The translations under genes were made by a program, and so were the position numbers. This document shows positions 1,349 through 17,479 of a stretch of 42,956 nt of DNA, piece after piece. The DNA lies in NCBI GenBank assembly GCA_902511005.1, contig CABXDN010000010.1, positions 1 to 42,956 on the forward strand. The letters run 5' to 3'. The notes beneath the pieces are model-generated. The model ran no database searches. It was not told the origin of the DNA and was given only the letters and a program-made list of their open reading frames with translations. Positions within the stretch are counted from its first letter, which is position 1; each line of letters opens with the position of its first letter. Source of the DNA: an uncultured Candidatus Poseidoniales archaeon. Lineage in GTDB: Archaea; Thermoplasmatota; Poseidoniia; Poseidoniales; Thalassarchaeaceae.

Positions 1349-4300
1349 TTGAGTAGCCATAATATGAATATAACCAATGAAGAGATTTTCTCGGGGCAAT
1401 CTCCTGCTTGGTTGTATGATCATATAATTTCTGAAATTTCCAACCCAATTCCATATTCGCAAGGCGGTCTTCCTAAATTATTAATCATATACCCTAATGA
1501 TGAATCTAGACTAGAGATGCTCTCAAAAATTGCTGACGAAGGATATGTAATCGACCGAAATTTACACCATACAGTTAATTCATTAATGATTTCAATTATG
1601 AATGATTTTAGAATGCCACAATTATTCAAGAATGCACCATATTTTGATTCAATAATTCATGAAGAATGCGTCAAAGAATCAACAAAACTAGGATTTCCTC
1701 TAATCAACCCTTTACCTACAATGCATTGGGGTCATGGTAAGACTAGAGCCCTTCTTCAATTACATAAATTTCTTTCTTCAGAAAGTGTAGACACATTTTC
1801 GTGGCAGGGCCCTGGTATCCCCACAATAAGCAAAATTCTAACTTCTTTAGAGACTAAAATGAATTTCACATATCCTGATTTTTTATCTCGCCGTCTTGTT
1901 AGTTATTTAGAGAAAATAGAGAAACCCTTCTCCTTAATAGGAATTGATGGAATCATAATGTTGAATCATTCGCCTACAACTTCCAAGGCATATCTAGATT
2001 TCATTTCCGCTGTTTCTTATCATTGTCCAATTCACCAATTAGCGAATAAAGGCAACTTTCGTAAAGGTGAACACGGATTATTATTATTAGATAACTATCC
2101 AGTAAAAGACGAATCAAGCCTACCGACTTGGGTTCCTAAACATAAACTCGATAATTTGAAAGAAACACGATTAAATAAAATACGAAGAGTATTAATCAAA
2201 GAGGAGAGCGATTCTTTCAATGCGGCTCTTTCTTTTGCCCGTGAGAAATTAGATTCTAGCTCAGATTCAAGAATAATAATTGTCGATCCAGATTATTACA
2301 ACAATGTATCTAAATGGAATATAGGTCTTAAAAATTTAGGGATTCCAATTAATCCTGTATCTATAAATGTCAAAAATCATCCATTAGGTTACTGGATAAA
2401 TAAATATCTTAAATTAGGCCATGATTCCGATTCATTTTCATTATTAAATCTTCGAGCATTGTCCCTCCAAAAAACAATTAATCTGTTCCCTGAAGTGCCC
2501 CCGCACCCTTTTGATAAGGATTTATTGCCCATTCCTGATATCGAAGTTCTCAATAGAGTTTCCATGCAAAATCATATTCTTGGTGGGCCCGGTGCTTTAG
2601 AAAGATGGATAAATAATTTATCTCGAACAAATATCGAAGTTGATAAAATAACAAAACCATCTGATTTAGAAAGAGTAAGGAAGCAAGAAGAAACCCTGTG
2701 GTGGTTACTTTGTTTATCCCAATGGCTTTACCCCATACTCAGTAAATCTGATCAACAAGTTATCAATAAGAGTAAAACGATAAATGGACTTTTATCGGAC
2801 CAATCATTTCCGTTACCAGAAGCTACTAAGTCTGGTGATCAATGGCTTTTAGAAACTCTAAAATTATCCAAAGAGAATTCTAGAATAGAAGAATTAGATG
2901 GATTATCCTGTTCTTCTGCAGGAGTAATACAAAATATATGGGCAGAATTAGATAAACTTAGAAAAATTCAAAATTTATTAAATCAAAATAATATTTCTTC
3001 GGACTGGGTCGAAGAAATATCAAATTTAATGAATAATATTGAAACATTTGTAACGTCTAATAAAACAAGTAGCAGATTAAGGGTATTGCCTGCTGAAAAA
3101 GTATTAGGCTGTACTGCTGATATGATAATTTTAGCTAATATCTCTTCACAATCTTGGAACTTAAAGGTTCCAAAGATGCATTTCTTAGGTGATGAAGAAA
3201 GGAATAAGTATAATCTTCTAAGAGCAGATAGTCCCGTTAGAAATGCTCGCCATATACGTGAACATATTTTCCATTGTTCGCCAGAGGTAATAATTCTTGA
3301 TCCAAGCAATGACGAATCAACACCCGCTGCCGCCCCCATTAGTGAATGGGTTTTAGAAAATGATTGTGCAGATATATCAGAAGTATTTGATTTAGAATTA
3401 TCAAATCTTTTTATCCCTAAACTTTTACGCCAAAAAGATGGGAAATCCCTGGAAAACAATATCGGTCCTACACTCTCACCTATTAACAGAAATGCAATAA
3501 CAATATCTCATGAACTCGGTCTTCAAAGAGATCGAGAACGACGTCAACCGAAGAAAGCAGACATAGATGGTTACATTTCAGAAGAGAATATAGGAAAAAT
3601 ATTTCAATTTAAACCCTCACATTTATGGAAAAAAAAGCCAAAAAAATTTCCTGAGGGTGTAGAATGGCCTCGCTTAAATCAAAGGTGGCCGGTGTATTCT
3701 GGGACACAAGAATGGAATGGAAAATTATTCGTTACTCCAACAGTTGATCCCCGGCCATTTGTTCCTGAATCGACAGGTGTGCTAGTTAGCGATAAGAGAA
3801 ATGGCTATTTATTTGATACTAAGTTAGGCAAGACCACATGGTCCCCCACAACTCTTCAAGATTGGCTAATTTGCCCTCGTCGAGGCTGGCTCACTCATGG
3901 AATAAAAGCAGGTATTGAAGAATCATCTCTTGATGAAGGACTTGATTCCAGAGTCCATGGTTCATTCTTTCACCAATTGCATTATGATTTATTATGCGAT
4001 GTTTTAGGGTTTAAATTAGGTAAAATTAGGGATATTGATAATTTAGAAACCCCGTCTAATTTAGCGAATTGTACAATTTCTGATGAACATCTCATGGCCA
4101 AAGGTCTTCATAATTTGGATAACCTAGCCCCATGGTTAACTAGAACTGATTCGGTATCAAAAAATAGACTTAGGATGATGAGTGGTATGTCGACAATTGA
4201 ATGGGAAAACTGGCTTGCAAACCCTCAACCAATTCCTCTTTCAGGTCGACTAGGTGAGATGATACAGTCAGAAAAATTAGAATTATCTAATTCTATACCG

Positions 4301-4978
4301 ATAGTATTTGAATGGAGATTCGATAGACTAAATCTATCACTTTCTAAAGAACTTACGATGCCTAATGGCGAACAACTATCGTCAATTCTAGTCAAAGGAT
4401 CGATAGATAGAGTCGATATTATCCCTTTTGTCATTGATGGTGAAAAAATTTGGATTAATGAAAATGGAAATAAAGATATAGCCCCATTAGAATTATACAA
4501 TTCTGAATGGAAACCACGTCGTCTCGTTGTGATTAGAGATTTAAAAACCTCTGAGAAAACTAAATCCAGTGATTTATCTAATCGTCATAAAAAAGGAATT
4601 CTTGAAGAATTGCAGTTAGCTCTGTATGCTAGAGCATGGGAACTAGAAAATCCCGGAGACTTAGTTGTCGGTGTGGGAATTTCTATTCTTGGTCAAAAGA
4701 CAACACACTATGTTGAAACTTCGGCTTCTGATTATACAAAATCTGTCGATAATATAGGTGAAAAGACTACGATTACCCACGATAAATATCGTTTCTTAAA
4801 TGAAGATTCTAGCCCTCAAAGTGACCCATTCAGAGCATGGCTTGCATCTAGAATTTCCACCGCATTAAACATTTCAAATAATGCTGATAATGGATATTTT
4901 CATCCTATACCTCAGGAGTTATGCAAATTCTGCAAAGTAAGAGATATTTGTGATGTAAGAGTGGAGGCCAGTTTCTAA
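1349..4978 (+). CDS. AddB-like PD-(D/E)XK nuclease with iron-sulfur cysteines
   Basis: A 1209-residue protein, the likely partner of the helicase that follows; the stop TAA and the next ATG share a base. The C-terminal third has the RecB-family nuclease layout: a His-bearing helix (GSFFHQLHYDL), GSIDRVD with D1020, IRDLKT with D1064 and K1066, then a QLALYARAWE helix. Four cysteines bracket this domain, C842 (ICPRRGW) and C1192-x2-C1195-x5-C1201. That is the 4Fe-4S staple pattern of Bacillus AddB. The N-terminal two thirds have no complete helicase motifs; a degenerate P-loop (WGHGKT, 127-132) is visible, as expected for an inactive helicase-like scaffold. The family processes double-strand DNA ends for recombination. 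The AddB assignment rests on architecture and gene pairing and could be broader. Confidence 0.8.
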   Translation: MSSHNMNITNEEIFSGQSPAWLYDHIISEISNPIPYSQGGLPKLLIIYPNDESRLEMLSKIADEGYVIDRNLHHTVNSLMISIMNDFRMPQLFKNAPYFDSIIHEECVKESTKLGFPLINPLPTMHWGHGKTRALLQLHKFLSSESVDTFSWQGPGIPTISKILTSLETKMNFTYPDFLSRRLVSYLEKIEKPFSLIGIDGIIMLNHSPTTSKAYLDFISAVSYHCPIHQLANKGNFRKGEHGLLLLDNYPVKDESSLPTWVPKHKLDNLKETRLNKIRRVLIKEESDSFNAALSFAREKLDSSSDSRIIIVDPDYYNNVSKWNIGLKNLGIPINPVSINVKNHPLGYWINKYLKLGHDSDSFSLLNLRALSLQKTINLFPEVPPHPFDKDLLPIPDIEVLNRVSMQNHILGGPGALERWINNLSRTNIEVDKITKPSDLERVRKQEETLWWLLCLSQWLYPILSKSDQQVINKSKTINGLLSDQSFPLPEATKSGDQWLLETLKLSKENSRIEELDGLSCSSAGVIQNIWAELDKLRKIQNLLNQNNISSDWVEEISNLMNNIETFVTSNKTSSRLRVLPAEKVLGCTADMIILANISSQSWNLKVPKMHFLGDEERNKYNLLRADSPVRNARHIREHIFHCSPEVIILDPSNDESTPAAAPISEWVLENDCADISEVFDLELSNLFIPKLLRQKDGKSLENNIGPTLSPINRNAITISHELGLQRDRERRQPKKADIDGYISEENIGKIFQFKPSHLWKKKPKKFPEGVEWPRLNQRWPVYSGTQEWNGKLFVTPTVDPRPFVPESTGVLVSDKRNGYLFDTKLGKTTWSPTTLQDWLICPRRGWLTHGIKAGIEESSLDEGLDSRVHGSFFHQLHYDLLCDVLGFKLGKIRDIDNLETPSNLANCTISDEHLMAKGLHNLDNLAPWLTRTDSVSKNRLRMMSGMSTIEWENWLANPQPIPLSGRLGEMIQSEKLELSNSIPIVFEWRFDRLNLSLSKELTMPNGEQLSSILVKGSIDRVDIIPFVIDGEKIWINENGNKDIAPLELYNSEWKPRRLVVIRDLKTSEKTKSSDLSNRHKKGILEELQLALYARAWELENPGDLVVGVGISILGQKTTHYVETSASDYTKSVDNIGEKTTITHDKYRFLNEDSSPQSDPFRAWLASRISTALNISNNADNGYFHPIPQELCKFCKVRDICDVRVEASF

Positions 4979-7900
4979 TGTCAGAAGATAGCAAAGAAGG
5001 TAAGAGTCCTTCAATGAGTCATAATATTGCTCAACGCTTAGCTCTAAATATAGATTCTCATATAGTTATCGATGCAGGTGCAGGTACCGGCAAAACTCGA
5101 ACCATAATAGATAGAGTAATCGAGCATTACTTGTCTGCAGATCAAAGAGCTACACGAATACTACCTACTCCCGACAGGCCATCAAAATTAGCAAGTGGAT
5201 TAATTTCTACAGAACCAAAAAATAGGGTGGACTTAGAAAATCATAAGGGTTTACTTCCCAGTGAAGTTGTATTACTAACATTCACTACCAAAGCTGCCGA
5301 TGAAATGCGAGATAGACTTAGAAGGAAATTAGTTAATCTAAGTTTAGGTTCTAAACACAATGACGGAGAAAATATGTCGGACCCAAGGATATTGAGAGCC
5401 GGCTTGAGTGAACAATTTCTATACCTTTTAGATGATGCACCTATAGGGACAATAGACTCATTCTTCCATCAATTAATAGCTCCATATAAAGGAATTCTCG
5501 GAAACTCTCTCAGTCATCAACAGATGACAACCTCTGAAAGAATAGCATTGAAAGATTCTGCATTAAATACACTTTGGAGACTGCCATCATACCCTCTCAG
5601 TGTAGCAGTTGATGCGGGCATTTATCCCGAAGATGTTGAAAAATTAATATCGTCCAGAGATAGAATTCAGAATTATTATTCTAGTCGCCGTAGAGCTATG
5701 GCAGTAATCCGTAATCTTTCCGAAAAATCACTTTTTCTCGATGAAGCCACGGAAAATCTAACCGAAGATGGTCTAAGCATAAGTCCAATTCTTTTGAAAG
5801 AAAAATTACTGGAATCAGTAGATGAGAATAGTTTAGATAATTTTAATCAGAAAATCAAAGGTTCAATAGATAATTATTGCCAATATATTAAAAATAATAT
5901 TGTTGCATATGGTGGGCAATGGGATACCAATACTCGCATATCTTGCTTAGATTATCTTTCCCAAAATCTTCCCGATACTAATATCTCTGAAAAATTAGTT
6001 TGGCTTAGTAACGTAATTCATTGCACTGCATCACGTTCTTCAATAATTAAAACATTGAATGGTAAAGAAAATGACCTTACTTTCTTCAGTGGTAAGAAGA
6101 AAACTAGCCTTCCAGATAAAGATTCTTGGGAAAAAGGAATTGGTAATGTAGCAGCACTAAATACAAATTTATTACCTATTGTTAATAATTTTAGATCCTT
6201 ATGGGAATCTAACGAAGCAGAAGCGATATTACATTATACAAAAATTATGATGTTAATAGATTCCACCCAAATTCCATTTTCTCCACCGAACTGGCTTCCA
6301 AGTGTTGTTGATATAGGTGCTGTTTTACCCAATCAAGCGCCATATAATGAGAAAGTAGTATATCGATTTAGTATCGAGCAAGAAGCCCAACATCTCGATG
6401 ATTTGAGAGTAGTCTTATCCGGATTTCTTAAAATTCTTAGTAAGTTAAAGCAGATCGATGAACTTCATGATTTTTCAGATACTAGGGATTTAGTAAGAGA
6501 TTTACTCCTATCGCGCTGCCCTGAGAATTGTAGAAGTTTTTATCATCAGTCAATGATTGATGCACTTGACAATGCAAACTCCTCTACTCCTTGGGATGAT
6601 AATCATATACATCTGGCTTTTGATAGATTAAAACATCTTGAATCAAAACCGAGTCTTGCTGGCGAATCCTTCTCATATCTTCAAGAAATTCGTAGAGATA
6701 TTGAATACAGATTTGAATTACTGAGAAAGATACGTAGGAGATATCGTGCCTTTGTCATTGACGAGGCTCAAGATAATTCGACACTTCAATGGCAAATCTT
6801 GGCTCGATTATGGGGTGAAAGATACTTCAATGACAATGAGGTTAATCCTCCGGATACTCCTTGGCAACCCACAATTTGTTATGTTGGAGATATCAAGCAA
6901 AGTATCTATTCATTTAGACAGGCTGAAGTCGGAGGCTTTAGGCTATATTCTGATTATCTACGTGATATCAATAAGCATGAATTTGCCAGTATTAAGCTTC
7001 TCACAGATTTCCCACCATTAAGAAAAGAAAATAAAAGTAGAGATCCAAGGAACGCTAATCATCTTACAATTTCAAGAGCAAGCAAACACCTTGAAAGAGG
7101 AGGGCAAGACCTAGATAATTGGGTAAACTTCGAACATTATGATGAGCAAGAAGCCCCTTCGCCGGAAGAAATCAAACTTCGAAAAGAGGGTGTAATTTCA
7201 CTTAAAATCAATTACAGAACAGATGCAGGTCTTCTCGAATTAATGAACGAATGGTGGAAAGATATCTTTTCTCCCCGACATAGAAAAATTCCTAATGCAA
7301 ACTTCTATGCCGATACTCAACTCTTATCTCCAAATAATAATTCATCCGGCTCCATTGAGTGGATTTGTCCTGTAGATACTAAAATCTCGGGCGACCCCCC
7401 ATCGGATCTAAACAAATACATTGATCCCTTCAGTATAAGTTCCTCTAATTCTCATGAAAGACAGGCATTAATGATTGCTTTGAGGATTAAAAATTTAGTA
7501 GAAGGTAGGCCTATTAGAGTCAGAGCAAGTTCTCAAGAAATAGGTGCAAATATATTACCTGCTGAACCCAAAGTACCTCCTAGTGAAATCATGGTCTTAC
7601 TTCCCACTCGTAATGAAATAGGTAACTTATTAGTAGGTTATTTAGAAGATTTCGGTATAGCAGTTCAATCAGATAAAGATGACGATGTATTAGCTCACCC
7701 TGCAGTCCATACTTTGAATGGTCTAATTCAATTTTTAGCTCGTCCTTTTGACCGTCACCATGCTTCTTGGGTTGCCAGATCATGTTTAATCGGATTTAAT
7801 GACGAGCAGTTAGATAGTTTCATTCGAAAATCAGATAGTTCAGAAAATTTACTTGAGCGTTTATTAGATATGGCCATCAATGATAGACAGAAATCTCTTA

Positions 7901-9951
7901 TTAATCGATGGATAGAGCTCTCTAAGAGAGGTCGAATCAACCAACTACTCGAAGATACAATTGACAATTCAGATATATTCCTCACATATTCAGATCGCAT
8001 CTCAGCGAATAATATTGAGCAATTCTTGGAATTAATAGGCTCTCTAAGTTCAGAAGTAGGTGGTGATATAATGGTAATTGCGAATCGCTTAAGAGAATTC
8101 AGTGAGCGTGCATCTTCATCTATTGAAGATACGAAAATAACTTCTGATAACTCGGTTAAAATTATGTCAATTCATAAGTCCAAAGGATTAGAATCTAGTA
8201 TTGTTTTTCTTGTGAATATTTTTTCTAGAGCACAAACTACAACCAATCAAGATTCTCGCTCCCGAGTGATGGTAAGTCCAGAACTTTTTGCAGGAAATCC
8301 AAAACCTTGGGGGGACGATGACCTATTCGTCCCCGCATCTTGGTTGCATACCAAAAGACTCTACCAGGCTAGAACAGATGCAGAAGCACGTCGGCTGTTC
8401 TATGTCGGTGCAACGAGAGCGAAGAAAAAATTAATTTTAGTTGGTTCACCCACAGGGACTACTTGGAAAGATAATGATTCTGCTACCGACGAATCTTATC
8501 TATCAGTACCCTGGAAATATCAAACTCCAATCCCTCAACTTGGCCAAATGTGGCTAGAATCATTACGCCAGAAATCATATAGATCGGGGGAAGAAGACTC
8601 TCCATGGCATAACGATTCTAATTTTTCCTCAAGCGGAATTTCTGATTCACCTGAGAATTTAGACTTTGATTTCCATCTTGATCCATTTAGTCTTCAAATT
8701 AATTCTTTTATCGGAAATAATATATTACCTGGAATTACTATTCTCCATCATCCTGATTGCTTTAATTTCGATAATTTTACTCCAGATATACTACTTACTC
8801 CATTACAAAAAATTGAACGCAAACATAATGCTGCAAAAGATACTTCTAATATACAAATACAAAATAATAAACTCCGTAAAGATTCTTTGTCAGTAGTCAA
8901 AATTCAACCGAGCCGTCTTTCGATATTAAGCCAGTGCTCTCGTCGCCATTGGATAGAAACTAGAGCCGGAATTTCATCTAATCCTATTATTTCTGAAATG
9001 AATAATAAGAAAATATCCTTTCTCCCTGGTGGCATAGACGCTGCAACATTCGGTAATGTGATTCATAGAATAGTTGAAATTGGAATTCCTAATCCTGGTC
9101 TAATTGACCCCGAATCGCCTTCTTTACCTGACTTATGGGTTAAGAAAAATCCTAATAATTTAATGAATAATACTATTCATGATGAAGTATACAAAGAGAT
9201 ACTTCCATCTAGTATGGATTCATCTGAAATTAGCCCATTAGTTCATCAAATGATTCAAAGATTATCTGCCGGAAAACTTGGACGTCTTGTTTCTGGAGAA
9301 GAAATAGATGGTGTAAAGGTTGAAGGTTTGAGAACAGAGATGCCATTCCATATATCGTTTGATGTACCTACAATTGACTTATTCATGACACGCTGGACTC
9401 CCAATGGTGAAATTCCTCTTTCTCAAATAGAAAAAACATCAGTAGTAATGGATGGGTTAATTGATTTGGTCCTATGTACTATTAGTGAAGATGGCCCCTG
9501 TATAAGGCCAATTGATTTGAAAACAGAAGAAGCAACTAAATTATATTCAAATAATTCTAATGGATTATTAGAGAGTCTTGGTAAAGACTCATATGAACCA
9601 TCTTGCCTATCTGAATATCAAATTCTAAATCATCATCGTATGCAGTTAGTTATCTACCATAGAGCATTACAAAAAATGGAAAGTAAAAGGGAGACTCCCA
9701 GGAAAGTTTTACGTCCTGCAATATGGATTGGAGTTACCGGACGATTGGTAGAATATCCCAAAGAAATGTTTGAAGAAGCGAATACTGAGTTAGACAAGAT
9801 TTTAGCTCAGGCTGCTAAAATTTCTCTAGACCCTAGAGACGTAATCGAAAATCACCCCCCTCTTTACGTTGAAGAATCAGAGCCATGTTTATCTTGTCCA
9901 TTCCATCGAGAACCTTTCCCAATTTGTGGTCCAATAACGCAGGACCTCTAA
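4978..9951 (+). CDS. AddA/RecB-like UvrD helicase with C-terminal nuclease
   Basis: A 1657-residue SF1A helicase-nuclease. Helicase motifs are intact: Walker A AGAGTGKT (33-40), motif Ia LTFTTKAADEM, Walker B/motif II VIDEAQD (593-599), motif III GDIKQSIYSFR, motif IV KINYRTD, motif V SIHKSKGLESS (around 1064-1074) and motif VI YVGATRAKK with R1147. A PD-(D/E)XK domain follows: FGNVIHRIVE, MDGLIDLV (D1496), PIDLKTE (D1513, K1515) and a QLVIYHRAL helix. It also has a cysteine set, C1320 (QCSRRHW) and C1637-x2-C1640-x9-C1650, resembling the iron-sulfur staple normally found in the B subunit. It is longer than bacterial AddA (about 1230). A GGAGG lies 10 bases before the ATG. It is probably translationally coupled to the AddB-like gene, the pair acting as an ATP-dependent end-resection nuclease. 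Confidence 0.88.
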   Translation: MSEDSKEGKSPSMSHNIAQRLALNIDSHIVIDAGAGTGKTRTIIDRVIEHYLSADQRATRILPTPDRPSKLASGLISTEPKNRVDLENHKGLLPSEVVLLTFTTKAADEMRDRLRRKLVNLSLGSKHNDGENMSDPRILRAGLSEQFLYLLDDAPIGTIDSFFHQLIAPYKGILGNSLSHQQMTTSERIALKDSALNTLWRLPSYPLSVAVDAGIYPEDVEKLISSRDRIQNYYSSRRRAMAVIRNLSEKSLFLDEATENLTEDGLSISPILLKEKLLESVDENSLDNFNQKIKGSIDNYCQYIKNNIVAYGGQWDTNTRISCLDYLSQNLPDTNISEKLVWLSNVIHCTASRSSIIKTLNGKENDLTFFSGKKKTSLPDKDSWEKGIGNVAALNTNLLPIVNNFRSLWESNEAEAILHYTKIMMLIDSTQIPFSPPNWLPSVVDIGAVLPNQAPYNEKVVYRFSIEQEAQHLDDLRVVLSGFLKILSKLKQIDELHDFSDTRDLVRDLLLSRCPENCRSFYHQSMIDALDNANSSTPWDDNHIHLAFDRLKHLESKPSLAGESFSYLQEIRRDIEYRFELLRKIRRRYRAFVIDEAQDNSTLQWQILARLWGERYFNDNEVNPPDTPWQPTICYVGDIKQSIYSFRQAEVGGFRLYSDYLRDINKHEFASIKLLTDFPPLRKENKSRDPRNANHLTISRASKHLERGGQDLDNWVNFEHYDEQEAPSPEEIKLRKEGVISLKINYRTDAGLLELMNEWWKDIFSPRHRKIPNANFYADTQLLSPNNNSSGSIEWICPVDTKISGDPPSDLNKYIDPFSISSSNSHERQALMIALRIKNLVEGRPIRVRASSQEIGANILPAEPKVPPSEIMVLLPTRNEIGNLLVGYLEDFGIAVQSDKDDDVLAHPAVHTLNGLIQFLARPFDRHHASWVARSCLIGFNDEQLDSFIRKSDSSENLLERLLDMAINDRQKSLINRWIELSKRGRINQLLEDTIDNSDIFLTYSDRISANNIEQFLELIGSLSSEVGGDIMVIANRLREFSERASSSIEDTKITSDNSVKIMSIHKSKGLESSIVFLVNIFSRAQTTTNQDSRSRVMVSPELFAGNPKPWGDDDLFVPASWLHTKRLYQARTDAEARRLFYVGATRAKKKLILVGSPTGTTWKDNDSATDESYLSVPWKYQTPIPQLGQMWLESLRQKSYRSGEEDSPWHNDSNFSSSGISDSPENLDFDFHLDPFSLQINSFIGNNILPGITILHHPDCFNFDNFTPDILLTPLQKIERKHNAAKDTSNIQIQNNKLRKDSLSVVKIQPSRLSILSQCSRRHWIETRAGISSNPIISEMNNKKISFLPGGIDAATFGNVIHRIVEIGIPNPGLIDPESPSLPDLWVKKNPNNLMNNTIHDEVYKEILPSSMDSSEISPLVHQMIQRLSAGKLGRLVSGEEIDGVKVEGLRTEMPFHISFDVPTIDLFMTRWTPNGEIPLSQIEKTSVVMDGLIDLVLCTISEDGPCIRPIDLKTEEATKLYSNNSNGLLESLGKDSYEPSCLSEYQILNHHRMQLVIYHRALQKMESKRETPRKVLRPAIWIGVTGRLVEYPKEMFEEANTELDKILAQAAKISLDPRDVIENHPPLYVEESEPCLSCPFHREPFPICGPITQDL

Positions 9952-12116: not shown

Positions 12117-12869
12117 TTACTCTGGTTTAGACCCATCTGCTAGTTTTATGCATCTTGCAGGTATCCCCGCCCACACTTCTCCTTCAGGAATATTCGTCCA
12201 CTTCGGGACGACCGCTCGTGAAGCTACAACCGCTCCATCTCCAATGGTGCAACCTGGTTGAATAACCGAACCCATCCCAATTAGTGCATCATTTCCAATA
12301 GAGACAGGAGCCATGACTAATTCTCCCTTCTCTGTAAGGTGTGCATTAATTATCGCTTTACCCCCTATAACCACCCTATCACCTAAAGTTACCGAACCGG
12401 CGTCATTTAGATGAGCTGAATTAATTTGGACTCCCTTTCCTAATTTAGCGCCTGATAACCAATAGTATGTGTTACCTATGAATGAAGGCACTAAGAATGG
12501 TAAGAAGAAAAGAGCAATCCTATGGAATACCATAGACCAAGCCCATTGAATTGTTAAAAATGATTGTAATGGATAACGACCAGGTTCTAATCTTGGTCTG
12601 AATAAACCACCCAGTAGCCCGGAAATAATCACTAAAGTGATGCCCCAGGCCATTATGCCCATTCCTGCGGCAACTCCAGTTATTGCAAATTGTTCCCAGG
12701 GGACTTTATCAATATCATGCATGAATAAACTAGGGTCGTTCCCTGACCACAAACTTTGGATCTTCCAGAAAATATAGATTCCAGATACTGATGCTAAACC
12801 AACTATTGCTGCAAGAAAAGGAACCACCATTGCTGTCAAAAGATTTTGAACGATTGTGAATGACTTCAT
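12117..12869 (-). CDS. Membrane-anchored left-handed beta-helix (hexapeptide) acyltransferase
   Basis: A 250-residue protein. The N-terminal half is membrane-embedded, with hydrophobic spans near residues 8-33, 58-85 and 110-135. The C-terminal half (about 140-245) is a hexapeptide-repeat beta-helix, with turns such as GDRVVIGGKAIINAH, IGNDALIGMGSVIQPG and IGDGAVVASRAVV. It ends with the WAGIPARCIK motif common to LbH acetyltransferases. Such enzymes usually transfer an acetyl or other acyl group from CoA; this membrane-linked form could modify a lipid-linked or surface glycan, which is inference. The start is ATG 12869, with GGTG six bases upstream; a TTG at 12899 would add ten residues and is less likely. 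It diverges from the RaSEA-like gene. Confidence 0.75.
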   Translation of the reverse strand: MKSFTIVQNLLTAMVVPFLAAIVGLASVSGIYIFWKIQSLWSGNDPSLFMHDIDKVPWEQFAITGVAAGMGIMAWGITLVIISGLLGGLFRPRLEPGRYPLQSFLTIQWAWSMVFHRIALFFLPFLVPSFIGNTYYWLSGAKLGKGVQINSAHLNDAGSVTLGDRVVIGGKAIINAHLTEKGELVMAPVSIGNDALIGMGSVIQPGCTIGDGAVVASRAVVPKWTNIPEGEVWAGIPARCIKLADGSKPE

Positions 12870-12957
12870 AGGAACACCAATGCATCGTCCTAGAACCAAT
12901 CTCCCAATATGTTTTCGTCGACGGCAGTATCAAGAGAAAGAAACTAACCGAAGGGCT

Positions 12958-14091
12958 ATGGCAGGGGCTTCTGGGATACTGGGTGATGGTAAAAAAGCCG
13001 TTAAAGTTCACCATTTAGTAAAGGCTCCTGAGAATACCCCCCAATCAATTTCGCGTAGAGAATCTTGGGATGCTACTAAGCCCGCAACCGTCTATAAAAC
13101 TCCTGAAATGCTCCAAGATGGAACTCCTTGTACTGCTGCCACAGTTATACTGAGAACAAAAGGATGTGTATGGTGGTGGAAATCAGGATGTACATTTTGT
13201 GGTTATTTTAATGACGTTAGAGATGATGTTTCTGCTGATGATTTATTCGCCCAATGGGAAGAAGCTAAGAGACAAACAGATGATTTCAAAGGTTGTAAGA
13301 TGGTTAAAGTATATACTTCAGGTACATTTTTTGAAGACAGAGAAAATCCTCCTGAATGGCAAGAGATGGTGCTTAAGGAAACTCATGAACGAGGTTTAGA
13401 ATTGATTGTAGAAGCACAGGCACATCTATGTAGCCCCGAGAAGCTATCATGGGTTGCAGAAAGACACCCTGGTTGTACTGTTGCTATAGGTCTAGAAGCG
13501 TATGATGATACTGTATTGCGCTTCCACTGCAACAAAGGATTTTCGACTAAAACATGGAGAAAATCTGTATCTGATTTGAGAGACGCTGGCTTACGTGTCA
13601 AAACCTATCTATTATTCAAACCTCCATTTATGTCTGAAGGGGATGCGCTTAACTTAACTTGTGAATGGTTAAAAGAAGTGGCTCCCCTTTCAGACGAGGT
13701 ATCGATAAATCCAATGAATATTCAAAAGAATACAGTAGTTGACCGAATATTCCGTAATAGAGAGTATAGGCCGCCTTGGCTATGGTCTCTAGTTGAAATG
13801 ATTGAAAGAACTCATGATGAAATTATTAATTCTAATTGTCGAACAATAGTTCATCCAACGGCGGGTGGGAGAATTAGGGGCGCACACAATTGTAAAAAAT
13901 GCGATGCTGAAGTAGTAGCAGCAATTGAAAGGTACTCTGTATCTCGTGATTTAAGAGAGTTCAAGGGTCTTGATTGTGATTGTAAAAAAGTATGGAGAAC
14001 AGAAATTAGTAACGATTTTTCGTTACCAGTTCCTTTAGGGCAAGGTCGCGATAGAAGACTTTCTAGAGTTGATATGGTCCGTGCACCTTAG
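12958..14091 (+). CDS. RaSEA-like radical SAM enzyme of archaeosine tRNA modification
   Basis: A 377-residue protein. The radical SAM cluster region reads ILRTKGCVWWWKSGCTFCGY, giving C-x7-C-x2-C; I recall this wide first spacing as typical of this archaeal family. A TIM-barrel core follows (YTSGTFFED, IVEAQAHLCSPE, AIGLEAYDD, YLLFKPPFMSEGDA). C-terminal cysteine pairs (NCKKCD, DCDCKKVW) may bind metal. RaSEA works with ArcS to convert a lysine adduct on preQ0 at tRNA position 15 into archaeosine. No arcS or tgt gene lies in the window. I chose ATG 12958; an in-frame extension back to 12856 overlaps the divergent gene and encodes an unlikely basic peptide. Some uncertainty remains versus other Elp3-like radical SAM proteins. 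Confidence 0.75.
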   Translation: MAGASGILGDGKKAVKVHHLVKAPENTPQSISRRESWDATKPATVYKTPEMLQDGTPCTAATVILRTKGCVWWWKSGCTFCGYFNDVRDDVSADDLFAQWEEAKRQTDDFKGCKMVKVYTSGTFFEDRENPPEWQEMVLKETHERGLELIVEAQAHLCSPEKLSWVAERHPGCTVAIGLEAYDDTVLRFHCNKGFSTKTWRKSVSDLRDAGLRVKTYLLFKPPFMSEGDALNLTCEWLKEVAPLSDEVSINPMNIQKNTVVDRIFRNREYRPPWLWSLVEMIERTHDEIINSNCRTIVHPTAGGRIRGAHNCKKCDAEVVAAIERYSVSRDLREFKGLDCDCKKVWRTEISNDFSLPVPLGQGRDRRLSRVDMVRAP

Positions 14092-14180: not shown

Positions 14181-14459
14181 ATGTCAACTAATACAATAGA
14201 TTCAGTAGATGTTTTTCTTCAAGGCGAAAAAGAACCTTCCGGTTCGTGGGTTTTCATAGTATTAGGGCTGGTGTTATCATTATCATTTTTAGTCCTCTAT
14301 AGTATTCTTTACCCTGGTCAGGATTTGCCAGTTATTTCTGATTTAATGCCCGTATTCAAAGGCGTATTTGATTCAGGAATATGGTTCTTTATTCTGGGGA
14401 CTATGATTGGAATTTTTGCAATATTGGGACGATTGCTGTTAGAGGCTACAAGTGAGTGA
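14181..14459 (+). CDS. Small two-TM membrane protein, partner of the oxidase-like protein
   Basis: A 92-residue protein with hydrophobic spans at about 24-44 and 69-88 joined by a short loop, and a polar N-terminus. No haem- or copper-binding motif is visible. It ends 10 bases before the likely ATG of the next gene and overlaps that gene's alternative GTG start, so the two are almost certainly co-translated. By position it may be an accessory subunit of the degenerate oxidase-like protein. I do not recognise the family. Confidence 0.7.
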   Translation: MSTNTIDSVDVFLQGEKEPSGSWVFIVLGLVLSLSFLVLYSILYPGQDLPVISDLMPVFKGVFDSGIWFFILGTMIGIFAILGRLLLEATSE

Positions 14460-14469
14460 GGGGATTATT

Positions 14470-16140
14470 ATGGATACAATTTTATCAACAATGTTTTATT
14501 TCTGGATAACTCTCTTTGTAGTATATTTCTTAGTGCAGAGAGGACTTTGGATATTCTCTGATGTGGCCAAAGGAACAGTTTCTTTTATGCTCGAGAAAGC
14601 TCTCGGACCTGGTGCCGATTTAGTAGAAGGTCGCCCTGGGGCAGGTGCACGCTCTTGGATTATGCAAGGGGCGTTATGGATGATTTTTGCCTCAATGTTT
14701 ACTTTTACGAGCATGTGGTTGACGCATGATCCCGATGCTCTCCATTCTTTAGCATCATGGGGTTATACAGCAAACGCAGAAGAATTAGCCGCTGCAGGGG
14801 TTTATGCTACACTTTATGGTACAGTTTCAATGTTTATTATAGGCTGCAGTTTCCATATTATCCCTAAGTTAGCGGGTACTGAATTAGCCAGTGAAACTAA
14901 TGCAAATTTAGTTTCGTTTGTTTGGACAATATCAGTCTTAGTTCTTGTGATAGGTTCTCAAAATAATAGCATCTTAGGAATTGATGTTATCCCGCTTGGA
15001 GTGGCTCTAAACAATGTAGTACTTCTCGCAGTTATCATGAATCAACTATTGACAGTTGCCAATAGGACTAGAAATATCGCAACACCAGGTTGGTTGATAT
15101 TAATCGCATTACTAAGCAGCCCGATATTAGCTATAGTTTCGATAGTTTCAGGAGCGGCAAATGATAATGTTGGTCAATGGTTAACATACCATATATTCGG
15201 CGGGACATTCTTTTTCGCAGGAGTAGCAGGAGTCGCTCTTTATGCATCTTCCATTGCTTCAGGTAACCCCCTGTGGTCAAAAACATTAGTTGGAGTTACT
15301 TTGATTGGCAGTATATTCACAATCAATCCATTTGGTGATGTTGATGGTCAGATGGTTATGGATGCGTTTGGTCCATTGGCCGATAATAATGTCATACCAT
15401 TCACTAATCAAGATATGTTGGCTGCTAGTTTCTTAATGGCCTTAGTATCAATACCTGTCTTAGCATTTTCAAGCAATATGCTTGTGACTATGCGTGGTTC
15501 AGATATGTTCGTAGATGATCCTGATGCTTCCGGTAATGCTGAGTTAAATCTAGGTTCTTGGTTAATCATTCCAATTGTAATTGGCTCATTATTTGTTCAA
15601 ACTGATACTGTTAGTGGCACAAATGAGTTATTGGGAATCTCTAATTCTCTTTCTGTTATGGCGGGATGGTTAGTATTAGTCCCTCTTTCCCTTGGAGCCG
15701 CTCTAAGTTTGTATCCTGAGTTAGTTGGTAGACACCTCTTTTCTCAAAACCGTGCTCGTTGGGGGTTCTGGATGATGTCCGGCGGAGCAATATTTGGGCT
15801 ATCAATAACTATGATTGCAGATTTTATGGACATAGCTCTTGCTGAGTTATTAGTTGAAGATCCAAGTATCTTATCAGAAGAACTCCGTAAAGTAGGTTCA
15901 GTAATGTTTTACGGTGTTGTAATTGGTTCAATATTACACTCTCTAAATATGGTTACTGGTATGTTCAGAGGAAATCTCATCCCGAAGAAATCTGTACGAA
16001 CATCCTCGATTTCTGTTGAATCATACCCTCTTGTATCTCCTACCACTATACGCAGAATACTATCTAGTGGAGCAGATCTTGATACCGAGGTAATCCCTAC
16101 TGGTGAGAATGATGAAAAAGGTAGTGCTACCAAATTATGA
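14470..16140 (+). CDS. Divergent CcoN-like (haem-copper oxidase subunit I) protein lacking most metal ligands
   Basis: A 556-residue protein with about 12-14 membrane spans. My manual comparison with cbb3-type CcoN shows matching order: an early helix, then VYATLYGTVSMFIIGCSFHI in place of the helix carrying the low-spin haem His (Y116 where His is expected); then QWLTYHIFGGTFFFAGVAG, matching the helix with the CuB His (H241 kept). About 45 residues on, the HH pair is replaced by INPFGD (N286-P287). In the segment where HxH is expected the sequence reads NSLSVMAGW (S393, S395). It is therefore unlikely to reduce oxygen; a structural, assembly or other role is inference. I prefer ATG 14470 (GAGGGG six bases upstream) over GTG 14452. 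A remote relation to other multi-span proteins cannot be excluded. Confidence 0.6.
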   Translation: MDTILSTMFYFWITLFVVYFLVQRGLWIFSDVAKGTVSFMLEKALGPGADLVEGRPGAGARSWIMQGALWMIFASMFTFTSMWLTHDPDALHSLASWGYTANAEELAAAGVYATLYGTVSMFIIGCSFHIIPKLAGTELASETNANLVSFVWTISVLVLVIGSQNNSILGIDVIPLGVALNNVVLLAVIMNQLLTVANRTRNIATPGWLILIALLSSPILAIVSIVSGAANDNVGQWLTYHIFGGTFFFAGVAGVALYASSIASGNPLWSKTLVGVTLIGSIFTINPFGDVDGQMVMDAFGPLADNNVIPFTNQDMLAASFLMALVSIPVLAFSSNMLVTMRGSDMFVDDPDASGNAELNLGSWLIIPIVIGSLFVQTDTVSGTNELLGISNSLSVMAGWLVLVPLSLGAALSLYPELVGRHLFSQNRARWGFWMMSGGAIFGLSITMIADFMDIALAELLVEDPSILSEELRKVGSVMFYGVVIGSILHSLNMVTGMFRGNLIPKKSVRTSSISVESYPLVSPTTIRRILSSGADLDTEVIPTGENDEKGSATKL

Positions 16141-16189: not shown

Positions 16190-17479
16190 ATGCGTATTGG
16201 ACTCGTTGGAAAACCAAATGTAGGGAAGTCAACTACCTTCTCTGCTTTAACAGAAACTCCTGTGGAGATAGCTAATTACCCATTCACTACAATCGAACCA
16301 AACGTAGGAGTTGCTTGGTTACCTTTACGTGAAGAATGTGCATGTAAAGAATTACGAAATAGGAAAGAAAACCAAGGAAGATTAGTTTCGTTAAAAATTG
16401 ATGAATCACGTAAAGGTAGTATTTGTCAACCTAACTCAGGAACTTGTAATAATTACCAAAGACTCGTGCCAGTAACTCTTGTAGATGTTGCGGGATTAGT
16501 TCCCGGAGCCCATCAAGGACGTGGGCGGGGTAATCAATTTCTTTCTGATTTAGCACGTTGTGATGCTCTAATCCAGGTTATTGATGTATCCGGATCAACG
16601 GACATAGAAGGTAATCCAGTGGGCGAGGGGGGTTCAGAACCTATGGAAGAATATCAATTTCTTCTGAATGAACTTGATGCTTGGATCGTGGGGATAGTCC
16701 AGTCCAGTTGGTCCCGAGGTGCTAGAAGGGTTCAATCCGAAGGTGAAAAAGCACTTGCAACATATTTACTTGATCAATTATCTGGTATCGGCGCCAATGA
16801 GCAACACGTGAATGCAGGTATTCAATCTGTTTCAGAAAATCACCCTGAATCAGGTGTCCCTTGGTCATGGGGTAATGATGAATTAATGACCCTAGCAGGG
16901 ACTATTCGTTCACTTCTTTTCCCTATCTCAGTGGCTGCTAATAAGGCAGACAATGCATCGAGTGAAGAGAGTTGGAGAGATTTATCTAAAATCATATCAA
17001 AATCAAATGGGATTTTAGTAGCATCTAGTGCTGAAGCAGAGTTAGCACTCAGAAGAGCCTCAAAAACCGGATTAATTAATTTGAATCCTGTAAGTAATGA
17101 ATTCTTGATTACAGATTTAGGTGATAAGAATCTTTCTGCAAATCAACGTAATGCTTTAGTTAATATTTCTACAACTTTATCTAAATGGGATGGAGGGGGT
17201 TTGGTAGGTCTCCTATCTTCAGTAGTTTTTGATAGGCTAAAGCACCGAGTTGTTTACCCAGTTCATGATGAAACCCATTGGATTGATGGAGAAGGACATA
17301 TTCTTCCCGATGCAATATTGGTGCCTGAAGGAACGACTGCGAAAGGTGTGGCATATGCAGTTCATACTGATCTTGGAGATGGTTTCATCCGTGCGACAGA
17401 TGCTAAGAGTGGCCGAGTTATTGGAGCGGATCATGAAATTCAAAATGGAGACATTATTAGTATCCATGCAAAGAAGTAA
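16190..17479 (+). CDS. ychF: YchF/OLA1-type P-loop NTPase
   Basis: A 429-residue TRAFAC-class NTPase. The P-loop GKPNVGKST is at 7-15, followed by NYPFTTIEPN (switch I), DVAGLVPGAHQGRGRGN (switch II, with the characteristic absence of the usual catalytic residue) and NKAD as base-recognition motif. A helical domain is inserted between. The C-terminus is a TGS domain (YPVHDETHWIDG to the end) of the kind that contacts RNA. YchF proteins bind ribosomes and generally prefer ATP over GTP. An insertion after switch I contains ECACKE and later two more cysteines, which may form a metal or redox site. No Shine-Dalgarno sequence precedes the ATG. The role is inferred from the family. Confidence 0.92.
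   Translation: MRIGLVGKPNVGKSTTFSALTETPVEIANYPFTTIEPNVGVAWLPLREECACKELRNRKENQGRLVSLKIDESRKGSICQPNSGTCNNYQRLVPVTLVDVAGLVPGAHQGRGRGNQFLSDLARCDALIQVIDVSGSTDIEGNPVGEGGSEPMEEYQFLLNELDAWIVGIVQSSWSRGARRVQSEGEKALATYLLDQLSGIGANEQHVNAGIQSVSENHPESGVPWSWGNDELMTLAGTIRSLLFPISVAANKADNASSEESWRDLSKIISKSNGILVASSAEAELALRRASKTGLINLNPVSNEFLITDLGDKNLSANQRNALVNISTTLSKWDGGGLVGLLSSVVFDRLKHRVVYPVHDETHWIDGEGHILPDAILVPEGTTAKGVAYAVHTDLGDGFIRATDAKSGRVIGADHEIQNGDIISIHAKK

Follow-up and report, generated by a model that had tools for sequence, protein, structure and literature searches.

The window, a single contig of 42,956 nucleotides from an uncultured archaeon of the Poseidoniales (family Thalassarchaeaceae), encodes a membrane protein that is very probably a homologue of haem-copper oxidase subunit I without haem, derived from the side of the superfamily that includes the cbb3 subunit CcoN and nitric oxide reductase (NOR). 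The fold of haem-copper oxidases is generally seen as bound up with its cofactors. A cofactor-free member that is strongly conserved throughout an order would imply that such a fold can take on non-redox tasks, and this in the Poseidoniales, which are abundant archaea of the ocean surface. The gene for this pseudo-oxidase lies directly behind that of a small protein with two predicted transmembrane (TM) helices:

14181..14459, + strand: putative two-TM partner protein, 92 aa, single copy in nearly all genomes
14470..16140, + strand: probable subunit I homologue of the haem-copper oxidase superfamily (CcoN/NOR side) without haem, 556 aa, with profile and fold matches

The longest open reading frame opens with GTG at 14452, with an alternative ATG at 14470. 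Because the methionine at 14470 is kept in 49 of 50 orthologues, the ATG is the preferred start, which gives a protein of 556 aa; the reading frame of 14470-16140 proposed by the first-pass annotation is thus real and better than that from the GTG. The start falls 10 bases past the end of the 92-aa frame (14181-14459). The pair is flanked on the upstream side by the gene for RaSEA, an archaeosine radical SAM protein (12856-14091), and on the downstream side by one for a YchF-related GTPase (16190-17479). In most loci examined in both Poseidoniales families the same succession of RaSEA-like gene, small protein, pseudo-oxidase and YchF recurs, gene order being judged only where the contig was long enough, and the juxtaposition of the small protein and the pseudo-oxidase is near universal in these loci. 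The usual neighbours are genes linked to tRNA modification and translation (RaSEA, YchF); oxidase genes are not adjacent and no NOR genes were seen beside the pseudo-oxidase in the loci examined. Elsewhere in the window (1349-9951) are two big adjacent reading frames of 1209 and 1657 aa. The second frame has matches to RecB/AddA helicases, and the first, for which NCBIfam gave no match, may be its AddB-like partner.

Is the resemblance to CcoN more than a shared hydrophobicity? Searches of Pfam, NCBIfam and the PDB with the single pseudo-oxidase sequence gave no convincing match, and no Pfam or NCBIfam model dedicated to the family matched, as might be the case for an unrelated polytopic membrane protein. 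Profiles tell another story. Of all PDB sequences, a profile of 41 orthologues picks three distinct ones, each of them a cbb3 subunit I (E = 5e-10, 2e-9 and 1e-7). A profile-profile alignment with a CcoN/NOR set scores 132.6 over 370 columns, against 54.6 for the best of 60 block-shuffled controls and about 24 for A-type and B-type oxidase sets, which consist of only five sequences and one sequence, respectively; with NOR-like proteins the alignment spans 370-435 columns. In one orthologue the Pfam COX1 curated cut-off is exceeded by 0.1 bit (34.9 vs 34.8 bits), in a match that covers nearly the whole model, the window protein itself being below the cut-off.

The fold points the same way. Two AlphaFold models were used, one from each archaeal family, both being predicted and not solved structures. 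With the first (mean pLDDT 83, pTM 0.85), the seven top Foldseek matches in the PDB are all CcoN chains (E 2e-12 to 3e-10), with TM scores of 0.73-0.78 depending on the target, followed by NOR and then by ba3 and aa3 oxidases. The second, of a Poseidoniaceae orthologue (pLDDT 79), gives the same ranking with CcoN best. The twelve-TM fold of subunit I is thus recovered with two orthologues (top E 2e-12 and 2e-8), and the 13 predicted TM helices comprise the 12 of the oxidase fold and one at the N-terminus. Since the profile search, fold matches, profile-profile score and COX1 match agree, homology to the CcoN/NOR side is well supported, and at the level of the family profile sequence homology to subunit I is found; the proposed likeness to CcoN is beyond chance, as profile and fold searches against oxidase families both place the protein there. 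That it is unrelated and CcoN-like by hydrophobicity alone is scarcely credible in view of the profile's choice of CcoN only, the long order-preserving alignment far above the shuffled controls and a fold ranking that descends from cbb3 to NOR to other oxidases. An origin as a paralogue of the aa3 oxidase in the same genome was also considered and rejected (24.6 against the A-type set of five sequences, vs 132.6 for CcoN/NOR).

Which of the ligands remain? The ligand columns were set from sequence rather than from coordinates, by aligning 82 orthologues together with nine real proteins of CcoN/NOR type. CcoN numbers are chain indices of 3mk7_A from HMMER output, and the window protein is numbered on 556 aa; H60 lies beyond the HMMER-aligned stretch of 3mk7_A and was placed by means of a related CcoN. 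From what is established for cbb3 structures, we take H60 and H347 to be the bis-His ligands of the low-spin haem, H345 the proximal His of the high-spin haem, H207, H257 and H258 the CuB ligands, and Tyr251 the active-site Tyr of TM7. The corresponding positions are:

14797..14799, + strand: G110, column of the low-spin haem ligand H60; His in 0/82 orthologues
15190..15192, + strand: H241, column of the CuB ligand H207; His in 27, Arg in 23 and Lys in 10 of 82
15340..15345, + strand: V291-D292, column of the CuB pair H257-H258; His in 0/82 and 8/82
15649..15657, + strand: L394-S395-V396, column of the HxH haem ligands H345/H347; His in 0/82 and 4/82

The full ligand set is present in none of the 82 orthologues. 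The bis-His pair of the low-spin haem is gone (0/82 and 4/82 His at the H60 and H347 columns), as is the proximal His of the high-spin haem (H345, 0/82); the three His of CuB, or FeB, are kept in none (H257), eight (H258) and 27 (H207) of the 82, and Tyr is found in 0/82 at the Tyr251 column. Even with two positions' slack, no orthologue has more than three His at seven sites, one of which is a conserved His that is no ligand. Non-ligand residues common to real oxidases are retained: every one of the 82 has S270 and N336, while W208 is present in 81, T340 in 80, G439 in 77, P267 in 73 and W434 in 71. The residue assignments of the first-pass annotation miss the aligned positions by one to five. 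The low-spin haem His, given as Tyr, aligns with G110; the CuB pair, given as Asn-Pro, with V291-D292; and the HxH motif, read as Ser-Leu-Ser, with L394-S395-V396, one position away. H241 was named correctly and aligns with CuB H207, but it is not the sole remaining His, as the protein has six (86, 92, 129, 241, 422 and 490). The loss of the ligand set itself stands and is common to the 82 orthologues compared. Profile, fold and orthologues together support the central proposal of that annotation, a conserved, ligand-free homologue of subunit I.

Could a haem, metal or quinone still be bound through non-canonical residues? In a 31-member clade that includes the window protein, H129 is found in 31/31, H86 in 97% and H490 in 94%, and 74 of the 82 orthologues have a His at 84 or 86. 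As the Thalassarchaeaceae keep these conserved H86, H129 and H490 of their own, they may have a lineage-specific metal or haem site. Set against a retained cofactor are the lack of any family-wide conserved His, Cys or core Met across the 82 orthologues, two Poseidoniaceae orthologues with just two His in the entire TM core, and the lower conservation of the haem-side half; the prospect is an improbable one. We infer that the pseudo-oxidase would be unable to reduce O2 or NO.

The conservation pattern of the pseudo-oxidase shows where a new function would sit. By the positive-inside rule, loops assigned inside carry 11.3 K/R per sequence vs 0.7 outside, and since this gives one topology, the C-terminus is predicted to be cytoplasmic. 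The cytoplasmic half of the helices is more conserved than the outer half, to a degree reached in 0/5000 permutations, and the excess appears in 10 of 12 helices. Real CcoN/NOR proteins show the reverse, the outer, haem-bearing half being more conserved (p 0.003, permutation). The outer half seems to have been freed from an old constraint, and the inner half seems to carry the present function.

The near-invariant polar residues N191, T195, S270, N336 and T340 lie where TM4, TM7 and TM8 end on the cytoplasmic side. These residues, and the His, Arg or Lys found at the CuB H207 column in 60/82 (Arg or Lys in 33), are what might be expected of a channel or transporter, in which the old proton channels or the haem cavity would have been reshaped for an ion or small solute, with gating on the cytoplasmic side. 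This is the main rival to a scaffold or signalling role, yet an unlikely one. N336, T340 and S270 may be purely structural because real oxidases conserve them too; there is also no invariant charged residue inside the membrane core, and no transporter family matched.

The cytoplasmic end of the protein is also conserved:

15970..16137, + strand: predicted cytoplasmic C-terminal tail, motif TTIR..L..G...DT, conserved in the family

The conserved residues after TM12 are R528, G534, D538 and T539. In the Poseidoniaceae the tail runs on into EF-hand pairs (7/7 members scanned singly), and in some other lineages into SAP or helix-hairpin-helix domains, which are usually nucleic-acid binding. Tail domains (EF-hand pairs, SAP, helix-hairpin-helix) are swapped between lineages, as seen at the C-termini of loci L042, L049 and L038. 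EF-hands are absent in the window protein, so that Ca2+ control is not the general function. Where EF-hands are present, in the Poseidoniaceae, Ca2+ might control the pseudo-oxidase. The functions first put forward, of transporter, sensor or scaffold, can be narrowed: cytoplasmic conservation, and the EF-hand tails found in the sister family, speak rather for a scaffold or sensor, a role that stays putative. Service as a membrane scaffold or as a sensor and signal transducer is a fair candidate on these sequence patterns, at somewhat less than an even chance.

How old is the pseudo-oxidase? A profile search covering the Thermoplasmatota, alongside which genome contigs were scanned once for close relatives, found the oxidase domain in 125 of 128 sampled Poseidoniales genomes. 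Absence in the other three (G027, G367 and G046, the last with an EF-hand match only) may be due to gaps in the assemblies. Across the remainder of the phylum as sampled, seven sister-group genomes of the same class among them, there is no match except one weak partial one (G336, E 1.8e-4, 75 positions), and re-examination of that locus gave no match at 1e-10; many weak matches in the phylum search stem from the EF-hand tails within the profile and not from the oxidase domain. The pseudo-oxidase would have been fixed in or before the ancestor of the Poseidoniales. Pseudogene decay was rejected, with dN/dS about 0.05; against same-genus orthologues the values are 0.04-0.06, in the same range as those of the neighbouring YchF gene. 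By this measure the pseudo-oxidase is a working gene under purifying selection. In one genome (G009, contigs C38 and C58) there are two distinct copies, with 84% and 52% identity to the window protein, along with two genes for the small partner; with contamination estimated at 4%, this is likely to be a mixed bin.

The small protein occurs in 57 of 60 genomes, nearly always as a single copy, with E18, P19, P50, W68 and G73 invariant. Gene adjacency suggests that it may form a complex with the pseudo-oxidase. Did it originate from CcoP? A profile of the small protein found nothing useful in the PDB. The CcoP N-terminal model FixP_N matches it weakly (best E 0.0011, 19.0 bits, below the cut-off of 24.9), and column-shuffled controls occasionally equal this. 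When compared with CcoP, CcoO, CcoQ and subunit II sequences, CcoP comes out on top (16.9 vs about 12). The two-TM protein may be a remnant of CcoP, an origin kept only as a lead because 2/100 column shuffles also reached 16.9 and DUF3185 outscored FixP_N within the same protein.

Genuine oxidases are found in the same genomes. An A-type (aa3) subunit I with a complete ligand set, and with subunits II and III adjacent, lies elsewhere in the genome of the window (G000:C2), so that the true subunit I sought by the first-pass annotation exists, and 56 of 60 relatives' genomes have a COX1 match above the cut-off. Low-affinity cytochrome c oxidases have been described in the Poseidoniales (PMC6336850). 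At the N-terminus of the A-type subunit I (locus L001, 799-3174), a long extension with a CxCH motif (GCNCHG) precedes the first oxidase helix. In one Thalassarchaeaceae genome (G031:C12; locus L130, minus strand, ~400-2070) there is a second divergent subunit I of 559 aa, probably B-type (COX1 E 5e-38), with an adjoining reading frame for a cupredoxin-like subunit II. The co-occurrence in 56 of 60 genomes would suit a factor that assembles or regulates the genuine aa3 oxidase or another respiratory complex. Such a role is less likely because gene linkage is lacking in the loci examined; moreover, the pseudo-oxidase comes from the CcoN/NOR side and is no aa3 paralogue, and one genome that is 92% complete (G018) has the pseudo-oxidase and no COX1 match, for which missing sequence may account. 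Overall, an aa3 factor is distinctly unlikely.

What, then, might the pseudo-oxidase do? A subunit I of the CcoN/NOR side has lost its set of haem and copper ligands and the active-site Tyr, and is encoded with the small two-TM protein just upstream; it would work with that protein, its own cytoplasmic face and tail binding a partner as a scaffold or signal transducer. Taken whole, the reading of a haem- and copper-free descendant reused in this way together with the two-TM protein is slightly favoured. A bolder version, in which the emptied fold serves order-wide in a signalling or channel complex, tuned by Ca2+ in one family, with the partner perhaps a CcoP remnant and the complex a cofactor-free relic of cbb3, is speculative and rather doubtful. 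There is also a warning here, as annotation by loose homology might credit the Poseidoniales with a cbb3 or NOR enzyme that they lack.

No earlier description of the family was found in the literature searched, which was largely without subscription journals. Among known systems, CcoN of the cbb3 or C family (PDB 3mk7, 9g6b, 8smr) is alike in its twelve-helix fold and helix order, in the long profile alignment and in the N, T, S, W, P and G structural residues common to both. The pseudo-oxidase differs in having neither haem ligands nor the Tyr, in CuB ligands that are at best partly kept, and in its extra N-terminal TM helix and cytoplasmic tail; CcoO (FixO, PF02433) is found in 0/60 Poseidoniales genomes. 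Nitric oxide reductase subunit B (cNOR and relatives) gives the second-best fold matches (4xyd, 3o0r), with the same ligand losses on the side of the pseudo-oxidase. The A-type subunit I of the same genome shares the superfamily fold, but it has complete ligands and adjacent subunits II and III, and no significant profile similarity (24.6). The nearest precedent, as far as its description goes, is the halobacterial family fam02696, which has no KEGG or Pfam annotation and a reported distant homology to haem-copper oxidase subunit I (PMC9258230). By that description it too is an unannotated family distantly related to subunit I, and it differs in occurring in Halobacteria, often beside oxidase genes.
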